Shown here piece after piece: positions 38,535 to 43,767 of a stretch of 64,000 nt of DNA. The DNA is from Posidoniimonas corsicana (GTDB lineage Bacteria; Planctomycetota; Planctomycetia; Pirellulales; Lacipirellulaceae). The notes beneath the pieces were generated by a model. That model saw only the letters and a program-made list of their open reading frames with translations, had not been told where the DNA came from and searched no databases. The position numbers were made by a program, and so were the translations under genes. Position 1 is the first letter of the stretch, and every line of letters starts with the position of its first letter. The stretch is from contig NZ_SIHJ01000002.1 in assembly GCF_007859765.1 (NCBI RefSeq), positions 186,001-250,000 on the forward strand, written 5' to 3'.

Positions 38535-40016
38535 CTACGGGTTGGCGACGTTTAGTTTCTTGTTCAGTGGCGGTAGCGGTACGTGCCCCTCACGGTAGAG
38601 GACGTTGTACGCGCTGAACGGGATCAGGTGGCCGGAGGGCAGCACAAAGTGGACGCAGCTCTTCATCAGCTGCCGCACGTCGAAGTTGTACGCGTCCATG
38701 AACGAGGTGGTGGTGATGCGGAACATGTCGGCCGGGGTGAGCCGTTCGGTCATCGCCCGCTCGAAGAACTCCGCTGCTACGCGCTGTCCCCCAACCTGTC
38801 CTAACTGGATCAGGTCGTGATCACCGGCCCCCCCAAGCTCCACCGGCCCACAACCGCAGCCTTCGCCGCAGGTCAGCCGGCTCATCACCTGCTCGATCAG
38901 CTGCTTCGCCCGCGGGCGGGTGAAGGTGATGCCGCCGGACAGCAGGTCAAGGTTGCGGTCGATATCCACGAACCTTGCGAGCGGCGTGACCTGCTGGCCG
39001 TCGCGGTAGCCGTACGCGAGCGTGTGCGCGTTGGGGTGCGCGCACGGCAGCGGCGTGAAGTCGTCGGCACGCCAGACATCGCCGCACTGATCCTCCAGCG
39101 CGCGCAACACATCGGGGAACGTGACGCGGTCCTCCAGGTCCTCCGGCAAGAAGTGTCGCCCGGTGTAGCAGGCGGGCTGAAAGCTCACACCAGAGACCGT
39201 GGGCCGCTGCATGCCGTAGCGGACGATCGGACCTACTTGATCCACGTTCACGCCCGCCTGCAGCGTGGCGACCAGGATCACGTTCAGCCCGACGGCGGCG
39301 CACGCTTCGACCGCCTGGTGCTTGATGTCCAGCAGGGACGAGCCCCCAGCAGACGGATCCCGCAGCGACGCGTAGTTCGACTCCTCCAGGCCATCAAACT
39401 GCAGGTAGACCTCCACCCGGTGTCGCTGCTCCGCCAGCCGCTCGGCGAACGCGCGGTCCCGCGCCAGCCGCAGGCCGTTGGTGTTGATCATCACGTAGTC
39501 GATCGGCTGGCTGCACGCGTAGTCGTAGATATCAAAGAAGTGAGGGTGGATCGTCGGCTCGCCGCCGGAGAGCTGCAGGATCTCCGGCCGGCCCTCGGCG
39601 GCCACCAGGTGGTCGATCGCCGCGCGGCACTCGTCGACCGTCAGGTGCTTGCCGCCGGGCCCGCTCGACGCGAAGCAGATGGGGCACTCCAGGTTGCAGG
39701 TGGAGGTGATCTCCAGCAGCCCCAGGCAGGTGTGCTGCTCGTGCTCGGTGCACAGGCCGCAGTCGTAGGGGCAGCCGCGGTCGGGTTCGACGGCCATCAC
39801 GTGCGGCTGCCGCGCCGGGGTGTGGTAGCCCGGCTTGTCGAACCAGCGGCTGTCGGAGCAGACAAAGTCCTCCCGGTCGCCATGCTCCGGGCAGCGTTTG
39901 CGGAAGTACACCCGGCCCCGCCGATCAATAATCTTCGCCGGAACAAGCCGGAGGCACTCCGGGCAGAGGCTCTGCGTGGCGCCAAGGAACGTGTAGTCGC
40001 GGAACGGGAGCGTCAT
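38535..40016 (-). CDS. radical SAM protein of the Tes/MJ0619-like family
   Basis: 493-aa radical SAM enzyme. A rubredoxin-like Cys4 (C18, C21, C42, C53 in SLCPECLR and RCPEHG), a second cluster at GCPYDCGLCTEHEQHTC (C82, C86, C89, C97), the AdoMet site C107-NLE-C111-PI-C114 (CNLECPICFASSG), GGEPTIHP (151-158), and a C-terminal CGEGCGCG. This arrangement is that of archaeal tetraether lipid synthase (Tes) and the MJ0619-type family, which act on lipids or pterins. Reaction here is unknown. The ATG at 40016 (MTLPFRDY) overlaps the previous stop as ATGA, so translation is coupled; an ATG six codons upstream is possible. About 490 residues fits the family. Confidence 0.85.
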   Translation of the reverse strand: MTLPFRDYTFLGATQSLCPECLRLVPAKIIDRRGRVYFRKRCPEHGDREDFVCSDSRWFDKPGYHTPARQPHVMAVEPDRGCPYDCGLCTEHEQHTCLGLLEITSTCNLECPICFASSGPGGKHLTVDECRAAIDHLVAAEGRPEILQLSGGEPTIHPHFFDIYDYACSQPIDYVMINTNGLRLARDRAFAERLAEQRHRVEVYLQFDGLEESNYASLRDPSAGGSSLLDIKHQAVEACAAVGLNVILVATLQAGVNVDQVGPIVRYGMQRPTVSGVSFQPACYTGRHFLPEDLEDRVTFPDVLRALEDQCGDVWRADDFTPLPCAHPNAHTLAYGYRDGQQVTPLARFVDIDRNLDLLSGGITFTRPRAKQLIEQVMSRLTCGEGCGCGPVELGGAGDHDLIQLGQVGGQRVAAEFFERAMTERLTPADMFRITTTSFMDAYNFDVRQLMKSCVHFVLPSGHLIPFSAYNVLYREGHVPLPPLNKKLNVANP

Positions 40017-40327
40017 TTCATGTCCTTTCGCCAAAGCAGGCGTCTACCGAGTCGCCAAGCCACGATTCCGGCGGCTGCCAACCCACACAATGCGGCAAGC
40101 GGGTAAATCACCCATCCGCCCTCGCCAAACAACGGCCGCAGCCACTCCGGCCCGTTCAGCGCCGCGGCGACGCCGCCAAGACAAACCGACACGCAGCAGA
40201 TCACGAACGATACCCCCACGGCGCCGGCGACCAGCAGGAACGTCAGAAACTGCCAGAGCAAACCGACCTGCCTCACCGGAGGCTTCGACCGCGGGGACTC
40301 GTACGGGTTCTCGTTGTGCTCAGCCAC
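40013..40327 (-). CDS. NPYxSP small membrane protein (paralogue 1), 104 aa
   Basis: Begins MAEHNENPYESPRSK: the NPYESP motif at residues 7-12 precedes two to three membrane helices (about 20-50, 70-93). Cysteine-containing first helix (SFVICCVSVCLGG), as in its relatives upstream. Ends in a basic tail (RRLLWRKDMK). The stop overlaps the radical SAM start (ATGA), so it is translated with it. Function unknown. Part of a tandem family at 40.0-42.6 kb. Confidence 0.78.
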   Translation of the reverse strand: MAEHNENPYESPRSKPPVRQVGLLWQFLTFLLVAGAVGVSFVICCVSVCLGGVAAALNGPEWLRPLFGEGGWVIYPLAALCGLAAAGIVAWRLGRRLLWRKDMK

Positions 40328-40368
40328 TGCGAGTCACCCGCTCCCCACCCGCGACGATTCCGTCAACG

Positions 40369-40686
40369 TCATCGATCCCTGCTCCACTTCACCCATTTGC
40401 GGTAGAGCACCCGCGCAACCAAGACTGCTACGACAATGCCAACCAGCACGGAAAAACCGACCATCAGCCACAGGCCCGTATCTGTGAGGCGCCGGTTAGT
40501 GCCTGGCCCGTAAAACCCGAGGTAGAGCCCTCCGTAGCAGATGGTGTTAAAGCAGATCCGCGTGGACACCACGGCAACAACAGCCGCGACTACCCCCACG
40601 ACGCACCTGCCAATCAGCCCGAACCGGTAGATTGGCGGCACACTCGCCCGCGGCGACTCGTACGGGTTGGGTTCTTGCTCGTCCAC
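40369..40686 (-). CDS. NPYxSP small membrane protein (paralogue 2), 105 aa
   Basis: GTG at 40686 gives MDEQEPNPYESPRASV; NPYESP is again at residues 7-12. GGGAG ribosome site upstream. Two or more helices (about 25-55 and 70-95). The frame is open 17 codons further (to an ATG at 40737), but a start putting the motif at residue 7 matches its relatives. Ends KWVKWSRDR. It starts 42 bp before the paralogue-1 start and lies on the same strand. Confidence 0.75.
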   Translation of the reverse strand: MDEQEPNPYESPRASVPPIYRFGLIGRCVVGVVAAVVAVVSTRICFNTICYGGLYLGFYGPGTNRRLTDTGLWLMVGFSVLVGIVVAVLVARVLYRKWVKWSRDR

Positions 40687-40776
40687 GCTGCAGGGGACTC
40701 CCTCGCGACATCGTCGATCAGGGCGTGTGTGCGGCAATCTACAACGGAGATTCTAACAAATCAGAGCTGCCGACGT

Positions 40777-41064
40777 TCATCGCCTTCGCCAGACTGCTCG
40801 AGCAGCAAAGTAGGCGGCGAGGAAACCGCTGATGACCGCCGGCCCAGCGGCAATCAATGCGACCAGGTAGTTGGCGTTGCCGGGACTGCTTGTCATCGCG
40901 ATTGGAACCTAAGCAACCGGGATACAGGTCACGCAGAACGCAACTACCCCCGCTGCAATCGAGAGTGGCAACGCCACCCAAACGCCAAGCCGTCGCGCGG
41001 CCCGTTGTGCGGGCGTGGGCTTGGACTGGGGCGATTTGTACGGGTTGTCATTCCGTCGGCTCAC
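40777..41064 (-). pseudogene. NPYxSP paralogue interrupted by an in-frame TAG
   Basis: GTG at 41064 (overlapping the previous stop as GTGA) gives MSRRNDNPYKSPQSKPTPAQ, RAARRLGVWVALPLSIAAGV and AFCVTCIPVA, then TAG (40909-40911), then the same frame continues VPIAMTSSPGNANYLVALIA and ends ARAVWRRR with TGA at 40777. So the frame has one internal stop exactly where its relatives continue into PTAFVAYG-type sequence. A 51-residue truncated product with one helix could be made. An internal ATG at 40896 could restart the second half. Either recent inactivation or a split gene; a sequencing error must be excluded. Confidence 0.75.
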
Positions 41065-41387
41065 AATTGCTCAGATTCCCTATCAACCGGCCGCCGGGCG
41101 GCGGACCACACCGCGAAGCCGGCCACCGCCCCAACCACCCCGCCGAATACCCACGCCGCCCACATCAAGACTTCGCCCTGAGTCGTTAAGGGCGCCGCTT
41201 CGCCCTGATAGCCAACGCCAAAACCAACAAAGCCGATCGGAAAGCACGTGCAGCAGAACGCCGCCCCGGCCGCCACAATCACCAGCGGGACCGCGGCCAC
41301 GAGGCTCATACGCCGCGCCACCCGGTGCACGGGCGATGGCTCGCTTTGCGGCGGCTCATATGGGTTGCCTTGGTGATCGACTGTCAC
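41061..41387 (-). CDS. NPYxSP small membrane protein (paralogue 4), 108 aa
   Basis: GTG at 41387 gives MTVDHQGNPYEPPQSEPSP with the motif at residues 8-13 (NPYEPP, a variant). Helices: about 30-60, with the block FCCTCFPIGFVGFG, and about 78-98 (VLMWAAWVFGGVVGAVAGFA). It aligns with the interrupted paralogue and with paralogue 5 over the RxARR, PL and FCxxC-P blocks. GAGG upstream is a modest ribosome site. It ends 4 bp inside the following start (GTGA). Confidence 0.75.
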   Translation of the reverse strand: MTVDHQGNPYEPPQSEPSPVHRVARRMSLVAAVPLVIVAAGAAFCCTCFPIGFVGFGVGYQGEAAPLTTQGEVLMWAAWVFGGVVGAVAGFAVWSAARRPVDRESEQL

Positions 41388-41401
41388 TCGTCGAAGCCTC
41401 G

Positions 41402-41719
41402 CTACTTCAACCGCCAAATCGCGCGGCCAACCAACACGGCGACGCCGATCCCCAACAACCACGGCAGCGCGATCAGCGGGTAGGCCAACCACGACCACGG
41501 CGACGATTCGTACGACACGCCGTAGGCCATCCCGTACGCCACGAACGCCGTTGGGTAGCAGGCCCCGCAGAAGGCGATGAGCGCGGCGACCAGGCTCAGC
41601 GGCGCCGCAAACCAGGCCCCAAGCCGACGCGCGGTCCGCTGCGCCGGCGACGGGTCTGCGCGGGGCGACTCGTACGGGTTGCTCCGTTGCTCGCGCGTCG
41701 ACTCGTCGTCTGGTCTCAT
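41402..41719 (-). CDS. NPYxSP small membrane protein (paralogue 5), 105 aa
   Basis: ATG at 41719 gives MRPDDESTREQRSNPYESPR, so the NPYESP motif is at residues 14-19, slightly further in than the others. Then RTARRLGAWFAAPLSLVAAL and FCGACYPTAFVAYGMAYG (first helix and loop) and a second helix (WLAYPLIALPWLLGIGVAVL). GAGG precedes the ATG by about 9 nt. 14 bp from the paralogue-4 start. Confidence 0.78.
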   Translation of the reverse strand: MRPDDESTREQRSNPYESPRADPSPAQRTARRLGAWFAAPLSLVAALIAFCGACYPTAFVAYGMAYGVSYESSPWSWLAYPLIALPWLLGIGVAVLVGRAIWRLK

Positions 41720-41787
41720 CGCCGGACCTCGCAGTGAGTCATCGGATTCATTGCCTTCAACGGCGTCGCGAGTTCTCTACCCGATCT

Positions 41788-42561
41788 CTAGCGATCGCTC
41801 TGTTTGCGTCGCCAGCGACAAGCGGCCACCCCGACTGCAATCCACGCCCCAATGATCGCCGTCGCAACGCTCACAGTAGACCAGGATCCCTCCGTATTAT
41901 CCATCACAGTAGCGACCAGCTGCCAAGAGGCTAACAACGCGGCTGGGATCGCAACGCACAACGCCAAGGCTTGCCAGGATGGTCCCTCCGGCGGCAGCAA
42001 CTCGCCTCGATCTTGAATCTCGTTCGAGGGAACCGGAAGTTCCCCAGCTACCCCGGGAGCGGGCGACGATGTAGCGTCTGGCGCCCGCTCGTCCTCGGAG
42101 CTAATTGCCCTGCGCCAGCGATGCCGGACCCACCGGCTACCAACCACCAAGGTGACCAACACCGTCCCCAGCCCTCCGCCGATTAGCACCAGCGGCGCAG
42201 CAGACGAGGAATTGGAGCAGGCCATGCCAACCGCCACTACGACCGACACAAACAACCCAAGTGCGGCGCCGCCAAGAATGACGGCGGTTACGATCGCAGA
42301 CCCAAAAAGCATCGCTACCTTCTGGCCACGCGATGTCGGAATGCCGCGGCGCCGCCGCTCATGAAAAACTCGCAGTGACCGCACTGCAACTGGAACGGCC
42401 AGCACGGTAGCGGCGATGCCAGCGCCACGTGAGTGCCACCATGCCCCAGCAACCACCACCGCCATCCCCAGCACTAGCAGCCAATCGAACGCCGCCAGGT
42501 CGTCCTCTGCATCTTCCTGACTGGCTGGAGACTGGTACGGGTTGTCGCTTGAATCCGACAC
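41788..42561 (-). CDS. larger NPYxSP membrane protein (paralogue 6), 257 aa
   Basis: GTG at 42561 gives MSDSSDNPYQSPASQED, motif at residues 7-12. The body is longer than its relatives: about five to six helices (about 25-60, 85-120, 125-140, 205-250) with an acidic linker (SSEDERAPDATSSPAPG, near 158-174). It looks like two membrane units joined. The ATG at 42612 is an alternative start but would push the motif to residue 24. First gene of the NPYxSP run; 68 bp before the paralogue-5 start. Confidence 0.72.
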   Translation of the reverse strand: MSDSSDNPYQSPASQEDAEDDLAAFDWLLVLGMAVVVAGAWWHSRGAGIAATVLAVPVAVRSLRVFHERRRRGIPTSRGQKVAMLFGSAIVTAVILGGAALGLFVSVVVAVGMACSNSSSAAPLVLIGGGLGTVLVTLVVGSRWVRHRWRRAISSEDERAPDATSSPAPGVAGELPVPSNEIQDRGELLPPEGPSWQALALCVAIPAALLASWQLVATVMDNTEGSWSTVSVATAIIGAWIAVGVAACRWRRKQSDR

Positions 42562-42643
42562 GCGTTTCACTGGGGCAGCGACTGAAAGATGTGTGGCCCA
42601 CTCCGCTCCCATTCGCGCGCTCGTCGAGCGTTGCGTAGCCGAT

Positions 42644-43627
42644 TCAGTCGTAGATCGGGCAGAACGTGTTGAAGAGGTCCTCGCAGAACGCGCCGGGGTC
42701 GTTGAAGCGGCGGTTCTCGTTGAGCGCCGTGATCCGCTGCATCTGGTCGGCGGACAGCTCGAAGTCGAACAACGCGATGTTCTCCTCCAGGCGGTCGAGG
42801 CTCGAAGTCTTGGGGATCACGGCCGTGCCGCGCTGCACGCCCCACCGCAGCAGCACCTGGGCCGGGGTCTTGCTGTGCCGGGCGGCGATCTCCTTGACCG
42901 TGCCGTGGGTCAGCAGCGACTCGTCCTCCGCGGCCCTGCCCGACGACACGTACGACGGCGCGCCCAGCGGGCTGAACCCGGTGACCGTGACGTCCCGCTC
43001 GCGGGCGAAGCGGACCAGCCGCTCCTGGGTCAGCAGCGGGTGCAGCTCGACCTGCAGCACGTCGGGCCGCACGCGGGCGTAGTTCAGCAGGTCGTGCAGC
43101 ATGGCCGTGCCGTAGTTGCAGACGCCGATGTGCTTGGCGAGCCCGGCGTCGACCAGCTCCTCCATCGCCCGCCAGGTCTCGTGCAGGGGCGTGGGGTCGA
43201 ACTCCATGGCCGGCTCGTCGGCGTTGGGCTCGAAGAACCAGCCGGGCGGGTACCGCTTCTCGAACGGCACGAACCGCAGCGAGATCGGGAAGTGGATCAA
43301 GTACAGGTCAAGGTAGTCGAGCCGCAGGTCGGAGAGCGTGCGCTCGATCGCCGGCCGCACGTTCTGCGGCGCGTGGTAGGTGTTCCACAGCTTGGAGGTG
43401 ACCCACAGGTCTTCCCGCCGGCACAGGCCGTCGGTGACGGCCTGCTCGAGCGCGGCGCCCGCCGCGGGCTCGTTGCCGTAGTCGCACGCGCTGTCGAAGT
43501 GGCGGTAACCGAGCTCGATCGCCCGGCGGGCAATCGGGCCGACCTTCTCGTTCTCAAGCTTCCAGAGCCCGAGCCCCAGGGACGGAAGCTCGCCGCCGCT
43601 TGCCGTGGTGAAGGTTTCAACCGCCAT
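42644..43627 (-). CDS. aldo/keto reductase
   Basis: 327-aa NADPH-dependent oxidoreductase, (beta/alpha)8 barrel. AKR catalytic residues: Asp and Tyr in RHFDSACDYGNE, Lys in WVTSKLWNTYH, His in YLIHFPISLRF; NADPH-binding IPKTSSLDRLEENI near residue 265. The KRYPPGWFF and FDPTPLHETWRAMEELVDAG region resembles xylose reductase-like AKRs. ATG at 43627 (MAVETFTTA) is chosen; upstream frame is Pro/Ser/Arg-rich. Substrate not determined. Follows the double-hairpin repeat and precedes the NPYxSP run by 83 bp. Confidence 0.92.
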   Translation of the reverse strand: MAVETFTTASGGELPSLGLGLWKLENEKVGPIARRAIELGYRHFDSACDYGNEPAAGAALEQAVTDGLCRREDLWVTSKLWNTYHAPQNVRPAIERTLSDLRLDYLDLYLIHFPISLRFVPFEKRYPPGWFFEPNADEPAMEFDPTPLHETWRAMEELVDAGLAKHIGVCNYGTAMLHDLLNYARVRPDVLQVELHPLLTQERLVRFARERDVTVTGFSPLGAPSYVSSGRAAEDESLLTHGTVKEIAARHSKTPAQVLLRWGVQRGTAVIPKTSSLDRLEENIALFDFELSADQMQRITALNENRRFNDPGAFCEDLFNTFCPIYD

Positions 43628-43767
43628 GACTCGTTCCGTGTGGTTGTAGTGCGAGGGAGCGTCGCTGCTGCTATTAGACCAGATCGGCGGCCGGGCACCA
43701 CTGCTCCGAGGCCGACACCTAGGCAAGAGTCCGACGCTGCCGCCACGCGCTGAGGCATCGCAGGCCA

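Follow-up and report, generated by a model that had tools for sequence, protein, structure and literature searches.

According to published accounts, the double NPF motif of SCAMP5, with an acidic region between its two copies, binds an EH domain and steers the internalisation of the protein (PMC8144573); the Asn-Pro pair is reported to form a turn, and SCAMP1 repeats to be bound with micromolar affinity (PMC8927860); and EH domains can bind NPY too, with POLE2 being another NPF reader (PMC12808100). A further account places the planctomycete N-terminal motif RRLxxExLExRxLLA (PF07595) on cell-surface proteins, some of them very long, where it is thought to act as an export signal (PMC8567305). 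As regards the enzyme encoded beside the genes discussed below, another study reports Tes homologues in Black Sea Planctomycetota genomes, their activity being untested there (PMC11868695). We found no mention of eleven NPY-type tag strings in the literature searched.

The tagged gene array and its neighbours

The window, by which we mean the whole analysed stretch of 64,000 nucleotides from Posidoniimonas corsicana, contains on its minus strand six consecutive frames whose products carry NPYx[S/P]P in a short tail at the N-terminus, preceding the first membrane helix (NPYESP in three, and NPYKSP, NPYEPP and NPYQSP in the others), which bears out what a sequence-only reading had described, down to the interruption of one frame. 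Judging from predicted helices, the 5′ gene (41788..42561) encodes a multi-helix membrane protein (MSDSSDNPYQSP with the GTG start at 42561), the Asn of its tag being residue 7 with that start and residue 24 with the alternative ATG start at 42612. The remaining frames, on the same strand, code for a small two-helix membrane protein (41402..41719) recognised from its sequence, the family alignment and a structure model, with NPYESP at residue 14 and FCGACYP ending helix 1; a second such protein (41061..41387) with NPYEPP at residue 8 and FCCTCFP; an interrupted member (40909..41064) with NPYKSP at residue 7 and FCVTCIP; and two more small two-helix proteins with NPYESP at residue 7 (40369..40686, assigned from sequence and family alignment, and 40013..40327). 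Read from 3′ to 5′, the Asn positions in these five are thus 7, 7, 7, 8 and 14. Both gene overlaps noted earlier are present, namely GTGA at 41061-41064 and ATGA at 40013-40016, the latter leading into the radical SAM gene. The signature FCxxC[YFI]P had been credited to four array proteins; it is exact in three of the six. The interruption consists of one in-frame TAG, past which the family match runs on in the same frame (282 bases), under a family model whose input included the front part of this very gene.

Five of the six array proteins form one diverged family, with 27-39% identity to the first member in the alignment, and are diverged tandem paralogues. Homology therefore accounts for part of the window pattern, and common descent remains the cause of tag sharing among these five. 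The 5′ gene represents a second family, found again in the array of a genus mate (L249) both with and without the tail. Pfam and NCBIfam profile searches of the six array frames returned nothing above cut-off, and GYF_2 likewise had no match in them. An AlphaFold2 model of the 41402..41719 product shows a two-helix hairpin (helices 25-66 and 76-104; pTM 0.45).

Absence of the motif from close relatives had been named as an outcome that would tell against it, and is not what we observe: of eight membrane-protein frames in the array of the genus mate, six retain NPYxSP, another carries NPFGVP and the last lacks a tail. One protein of this array (L249 9715-10137), from the family of the 5′ gene, starts at the first helix, without the tail, and in two other genomes (G174 and G162) a zinc-ribbon-like stretch lies ahead of NPYASP in the same frame; based on these cases we take the tail to be modular and, as far as the sequences indicate, separable from the membrane protein.

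Upstream of the array lies an aldo/keto reductase gene (42644..43726, minus strand), which also neighbours the genus mate's array and has no match at loci L250 or L251. On the other side, a minus-strand gene (38535..40016) encodes a protein in which an HMPTM-type zinc ribbon and a radical SAM domain exceed the Pfam cut-offs. This domain pair and its best NCBIfam matches, to TrsS (NF045646; 341.8 bits against a cut-off of 490) and Tes (NF045702; 292 against 450), make the protein Tes/TrsS-like, but as it falls under both curated cut-offs it is by that measure a member of neither family. The motif had been described as coupled to this gene. This holds for the window array, as an array next to a Tes-like radical SAM gene is found again in three other genomes, but not for the motif generally: G161, which has 41 NPYxSP places, the most of the 118 order genomes, has no match to the window's radical SAM protein, and we accordingly reject the gene as the tag's general partner. 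Of 30 radical SAM loci, the present one included, only 7 show NP[YF]x[SATP]P in the upstream frames. Within the window, the tagged two-helix proteins are co-encoded with the Tes-like enzyme and would probably recruit it, or its adaptor, to the membrane.

Occurrence of the tag across proteins and genomes

The pattern reaches well beyond what the sequence-only reading had described. In the genome of P. corsicana NPYxSP is found at 31 places as against 2 for the reversed pattern; the other outcome named against the motif, that it be no commoner than chance, thus did not occur. With starts and helices predicted by simple rules, a helix follows within the next 100 residues at 29 of these 31 places, compared with 426 of 3693 positions sampled from long frames of the window, and 28 of the 31 combine such a helix with a start-like codon within 15 residues; the start-like codon test by itself is weak, as 1376 of the 3693 background positions pass it. 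Across three genomes taken whole, the tag lies 1-7 residues past the nearest start used in 49 of 54 start-proximal proteins, with spacings spread from 1 to 14 residues, and Ala is the commonest residue at position 4 of the tag. In one genome (G153) the simple rule places a helix at only 9 of 15 tag places.

The residues of the tag are themselves selective. When position 3 is opened to all NNY codon boxes (NP[NNY]xSP), Tyr accounts for 31 places in P. corsicana and Phe for 12, the other fourteen boxes together contributing 35; the start-plus-helix test is passed by 9 of the 12 NPF places versus 1 of 9 non-aromatic places fetched from those 35. Position 1 favours Asn (31 of 49 in the same genome).

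Based on BLAST clustering, the 30 start-proximal P. corsicana proteins fall into 25 clusters and 120 pooled proteins into 87, and the Pfam folds represented among tagged proteins include RDD, Yip1, Bax1-I, MatE, YcxB-like and DUF4328, while an NCBIfam scan of 26 P. corsicana tagged proteins gave one weak MFS match. By these sequence comparisons the tag sits on membrane proteins of many unrelated kinds, both in this genome and in some planctomycete relatives. A second NP[YF] is present in the tail of 1 of the 120 pooled proteins. Over the 118 order genomes NPYxSP exceeds the reversed pattern in 81 and falls below it in 21 (502 to 137 in sum), and the excess differs widely, strongly so within one family; many relatives are at background, including the family members G197 (0 versus 1 reversed) and G216 (0 versus 4 reversed), while 28 of the 118 show an excess of 5 or more. 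A motif-rich example is the cultured planctomycete strain CA13 (G281), whose genome has NPYx[SATP]P at 57 places and the reversed form at 3.

Lys and Arg are more numerous before the first helix than after it in 87 of the 120 pooled proteins, equal in 14 and fewer in 19 (p 5e-10), with the same tendency in the three whole genomes (more in 28, equal in 5 and fewer in 8 of 41; p 3e-4). In light of the positive-inside rule, the tail is predicted to lie in the cytoplasm, where it is probably disordered.

Alternative explanations of the tag

The tag might be a leftover of tandem duplication without any signal function. The paralogy of five of the six window proteins and the similar arrays in G189 and G168 would agree with this, but the large numbers of clusters and the different Pfam folds do not, and the window family keeps NP[YF]x[SP]P in 13 of 13 aligned members at a mean column identity of 33%, these rows having been picked for carrying the tag (the G168 array has two or more members without it). 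As homology as the sole cause is rejected genome-wide by the clustering and the folds, we regard this explanation as highly improbable. A signal in the mRNA or at the translation start, with the peptide a mere by-product, could account for a tag that mostly lies close to a start codon; however, the 31 P. corsicana places draw on either codon for Asn and for Tyr and on each of the four CCN and four TCN codons, and comprise 29 distinct 17-mers, from which variety it follows that selection acts on the protein. The spread of start distances, the inner positions seen at L007 and L015 and the enrichment of both the TAY and the TTY box over the fourteen others likewise argue against a codon- or mRNA-level signal, which we consider extremely unlikely. 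GYF_2 domains, which are common in genomes of the order and often stand ahead of membrane helices, were considered as readers of the tag, with matches in 113 of the 118 genomes and a raw rank correlation with tag count of 0.27 (p 0.003). This correlation drops to a partial value of 0.05 once genome size is removed, the tag is present in 1 of 28 GYF_2 frames examined, and G161, with the highest tag count in the sample, has only 3 GYF_2 matches; GYF_2, which also had no match among 26 tagged P. corsicana proteins scanned, is hence rejected as reader, its chance of being so being very slight.

The tag could also act within its own molecule, packing on the membrane domain or the lipid surface, as its short distance from the first helix might suggest. 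Yet residues 1-24 of the one modelled window tail are without helix or strand (pLDDT 60 for the first block of ten residues and 69 for the second), and as the same tag residues occur on different folds a common intramolecular partner is unlikely; we thus think packing of this kind improbable. The alternative to which we allow the most, as possible though unlikely, is a biogenesis or quality-control signal, in which the tail would be recognised while the protein is being inserted, or by a chaperone or membrane protease, and would govern insertion, topology or turnover instead of location. It would be in keeping with a tag that lies close to the N-terminus and precedes helix 1 in membrane proteins of many folds, at a median Asn-to-helix distance of 29 residues in the pool and 27 in the three whole genomes. 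On the other hand, general insertion and degradation machines are, to our knowledge, present in all bacteria, whereas the tag excess is lineage-limited and strongly variable in one family, and the tag is also seen behind a zinc-ribbon-like stretch or within an inner loop (L015, L007).

Proposed function and comparison with known systems

We propose, giving it about an even chance, that NP[Y/F]xSP serves as a short linear motif for docking, borne by many unrelated membrane proteins in an N-terminal tail that is predicted to be cytosolic and is probably disordered. The Asn-Pro would form a tight turn, offering the aromatic side chain to the pocket of an adaptor, cytosolic or membrane-peripheral, which would gather, sort or retain the tagged proteins in the manner of EH domains reading NPF in SCAMP tails. 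The targeting, sorting or interaction signal suggested by the sequence-only reading fits such a motif, of fixed composition and on unrelated, separable proteins, although its sharing within the window is partly a matter of paralogy. The membranes of planctomycetes are heavily invaginated, and a bolder and in our view unlikely extension is a planctomycete cargo code, in which a dedicated adaptor or coat reads NP[Y/F]xSP and directs membrane proteins that are unrelated to one another to a given membrane domain, convergently with eukaryotic NPF sorting. Should the tag be a sorting or docking code, it would offer a handle on how proteins are distributed over the folded inner membrane of these bacteria; it also unites small membrane proteins, most of them uncharacterised, in a single class open to testing, and can itself be used as a bait for its reader. 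Among the candidates looked at in the 118 order genomes (EH domain and GYF_2), no reader was found; the EH domain (PF12763) had a match in none of them, the control genomes being without a match as well.

Like the PF07595 motif, the present tag is a lineage-specific N-terminal motif common to many otherwise different planctomycete proteins. The carriers of PF07595 are surface proteins, whereas the tag is predicted to be cytosolic and lies ahead of helices, and PF07595 had no match at E 0.001 in 77 scanned tagged proteins (26 from P. corsicana and 51 others). On our best reading, which is one of analogy, the tag resembles the eukaryotic NPF ligand of EH domains: both have an Asn-Pro-aromatic core with a strong aromatic preference, located in a cytosolic, unstructured tail at the N-terminus of membrane proteins with several helices (SCAMP5 and SCAMP1 in the eukaryotic case), the bacterial tail being placed and described thus by prediction, from the positive-inside rule and one modelled tail. 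The present tag differs in being bacterial, in preferring Tyr to Phe, in its extension by x-S-P and in its usually single copy; if the proposal is correct, bacteria would seem to have evolved tail motifs of the Asn-Pro-aromatic type on their own, without a link to EH domains.

Excess and residue specificity of the motif

The genome of Posidoniimonas corsicana (6.77 Mb in 13 contigs) contains NPYxSP with a TCN-encoded serine at 31 places and the reversed control pattern at 2; these counts become 38 and 6 once position 5 is widened to Ala, Thr or Pro. The motif is hence more frequent than chance, one of the two points on which the sequence-only reading had beforehand let its proposal of a shared N-terminal signal depend. 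A start-like codon lies at most 15 residues upstream in 30 of the 31 places, a predicted helix at most 100 residues downstream in 29, and both in 28. As 3693 positions taken as background from the window's long frames passed the start test in 1376 and the helix test in 426 cases, the former is weak by itself and the latter strong. With the same script, all listed places of two further genomes gave 15/15 starts and 9/15 helices (G153), and 10/12 and 11/12 (G165). Among the exceptions at home, one locus (L015) has no nearby start, its tag following a zinc-ribbon-like stretch; another (L007) passes the start test, yet its tag sits in a loop between helices of a membrane protein that probably resembles CPBP-type proteases; no helix is predicted for L026, and those of L025 are all distant. 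The variants NPYAAP (L002), NPY-stop (L008), NPYAPP (L009) and NPYITP (L029) look like chance matches.

With the third residue opened to any NNY codon (NP[NNY]xSP), 78 places are found, 31 with Tyr, 12 with Phe and 35 in the other fourteen codon boxes together; opening the first residue instead ([NNY]PYxSP) gives 49, of which 31 have Asn. The combined start-plus-helix test was passed by 9/12 NPF places, one of which (L349) looks internal, versus 1/9 non-aromatic places, these nine being those fetched out of the 35. The most fitting notation is therefore NP[Y/F]xSP. Across 54 start-proximal tags from three whole genomes, residue 4 is Ala (16), Glu (14), Gln (13), Arg (6), Ser (2), Lys (2) or Asp (1); in the 49 whose Asn lies 1-7 residues past the start used, an acidic residue intervenes 36 times. 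Codon use within the tag is varied.

A tag on unrelated membrane proteins

BLAST groups the 30 start-proximal proteins of P. corsicana into 25 clusters; a larger pool of tagged membrane proteins (120, every member collected via the motif or via arrays) gives 87. Pfam scans (E 0.001) left most tagged proteins without a family match; the 26 scanned from P. corsicana yielded Yip1 (2), RDD (1) and a weak MFS match (1), and 51 from named contigs (4 of 55 frames omitted; 4 of the 51 from contigs labelled just "bacterium") yielded Bax1-I (2), YcxB-like (2), MatE, DUF4328, PQQ-type and two weak matches. Tagged RDD proteins also occur in Moraxella and another gammaproteobacterium, and the RDD and Bax1-I matches start at residues 23-31, downstream of the tag. 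On these sequence comparisons, homology does not account for the sharing of the tag across the genome. A recurrent tagged family has an NPYASP tail, a cysteine-pair stretch (PxxCxxC) and then helices (L016, L283-L285, and L036 1484-2590, minus strand, where two members stand in tandem).

Lysine plus arginine per 15 residues averages 2.57 before helix 1 and 1.21 after it in the pool of 120, about half of which came from a scan specifying M-x-x-NPY[EQ]SP (greater before in 87, equal in 14, less in 19; p 5e-10); the three whole genomes alone show the same excess (28, 5 and 8 of 41; p 3e-4), from which the tagged tail is predicted to be cytoplasmic. The Asn lies a median of 29 residues (pool) or 27 (three genomes) from helix 1. 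An AlphaFold2 model of one window protein (mean pLDDT 78.8, pTM 0.45) has helices at 25-66 and 76-104, with residues 1-24 lacking structure. The tag is a short motif of fixed composition on unrelated membrane proteins, predicted to be cytosolic and separable from the membrane domain.

The array and its radical SAM neighbour

Six consecutive minus-strand frames (40013-42561), with an aldo/keto reductase gene on one side (42644-43726) and the radical SAM gene on the other (38535-40016), carry, in gene order, NPYQSP, NPYESP, NPYEPP, NPYKSP, NPYESP and NPYESP. The sequence-only reading described these frames and their overlaps (GTGA and ATGA) correctly; FCxxC[YFI]P, which it ascribed to four frames, matches exactly in three only. 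Alignment places five of the six in one diverged family of two-helix proteins. The 5' gene belongs to a different family, present again in the array of the genus mate (G189), where one member (L249 9715-10137, minus strand) begins at the first helix without tail or tag; an ARAGORN tRNA-Ala (ggc) at 42372-42457 (minus strand), inside the coding frame of this 5' gene, is probably a false call. One array gene is broken by an in-frame TAG beyond which the family match runs on. Gene spacing makes a single operon likely; a search of 39900-42750 detected no promoter-like site but 8 terminator-like ones, versus 3.0 (sd 2.2) in shuffled sequence.

A profile built from the five window paralogues recovered a syntenic array in G189, flanked as in the window by the reductase and radical SAM genes. 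It also recovered, in G168, eight small frames, six with NP[YF]x[PA]P, immediately preceding the gene of a radical SAM protein that shares 72% identity with that of the window, and in G187 a single NPYQSP gene immediately before the orthologue. Of the 118 genomes of the order, 37 have a strong radical SAM match (E < 1e-80). In 27 of 30 loci, the own included, a co-directional frame with at least two predicted helices ends just upstream, a count that carries no control rate for random genes; the remaining three include G205, which starts too close to a contig end. NP[YF]x[SATP]P is present in the upstream frames of seven of the 30 (the own genome G000, G189, G168, G228, G174, G187 and G162), and the other loci have an upstream CxxC...CWxC zinc-ribbon-like tail or neither tail. 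The constant feature therefore looks like a small membrane partner, of which the tag is one of the tails. Small membrane proteins with a CxxCG...CWxC N-terminal tail (for example L295 and L296) occupy the position held by tagged proteins in P. corsicana, and in G174 and G162 a zinc-ribbon-like stretch and NPYASP share one frame ahead of the helices. The longer G174 protein (L297) ends in a TCFPLGLAGF stretch and a helix resembling the FCxxCFP region of the window two-helix proteins, which may match its back half. The window enzyme is Tes/TrsS-like; because it scores below both curated cut-offs, membrane-lipid chemistry is a lead and not a result.

Spread across genomes and candidate readers

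Summed over the 118 genomes of the order there are 502 places versus 137 reversed (greater in 81, equal in 16, less in 21), with an excess of at least 5 in 28; counts increase with genome size (rank correlation 0.54) and are highest in G161 (41/0), G189 (35/1), P. corsicana (31/2) and G179 (24/3); several genomes from the family of P. corsicana are at background level. In a phylum sample 89 of 148 genomes have any match, at counts mostly like the control. A named-genome scan for M-x-x-NPY[EQ]SP gave at least 118 stretches; among the matches listed, titles indicate 57 planctomycete, 56 other and 5 unclear, and frames of at least 50 residues with a helix number 52/60 for planctomycete NPYxSP frames versus 12/50 for others. 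In 29 further genomes reached through these matches, with position 5 relaxed, places versus reversed were 57/3 in CA13, 51/5 in G285, 48/6 in G283 (Planctomycetaceae), 45/9 in G284 (Blastopirellula) and 31/5 in G288; G289, planctomycete by title too, has by contrast 4/3. The deltaproteobacterium G271 (16/5), Moraxella oblonga (13/5), Haloferula (12/4) and Paenibacillus (11/3) also show more places than reversed, the remaining non-planctomycetes being nearer the control. A planctomycete origin of the window, as the sequence-only reading held, is consistent with this distribution.

GYF_2 domains as reader of the tag are not supported by counts across genomes or by the GYF_2 frames examined; in L240, the sole one of 28 such frames with NPYQSP, this motif separates the GYF_2 domain from the helix. 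A search for EH domains, run without a positive control, found no match among the 118 genomes. A search of open-licence PubMed Central text found no mention of eleven NPY strings (NPYQSP, NPYESP, NPYASP, NPYAAP, NPYQAP, NPYAPP, NPYxSP, NPYXXP, NPYRSP, NPYKSP and NPYDSP) or of NPFASP; NPFESP appears there in an ergonomics guide and in the human NPF-reader paper. By analogy with NPF ligands, as presented in PMC8144573, PMC8927860 and PMC12808100, the tail may dock on an adaptor, in which case the Asn-Pro would form a turn and the aromatic residue would serve as the anchor.
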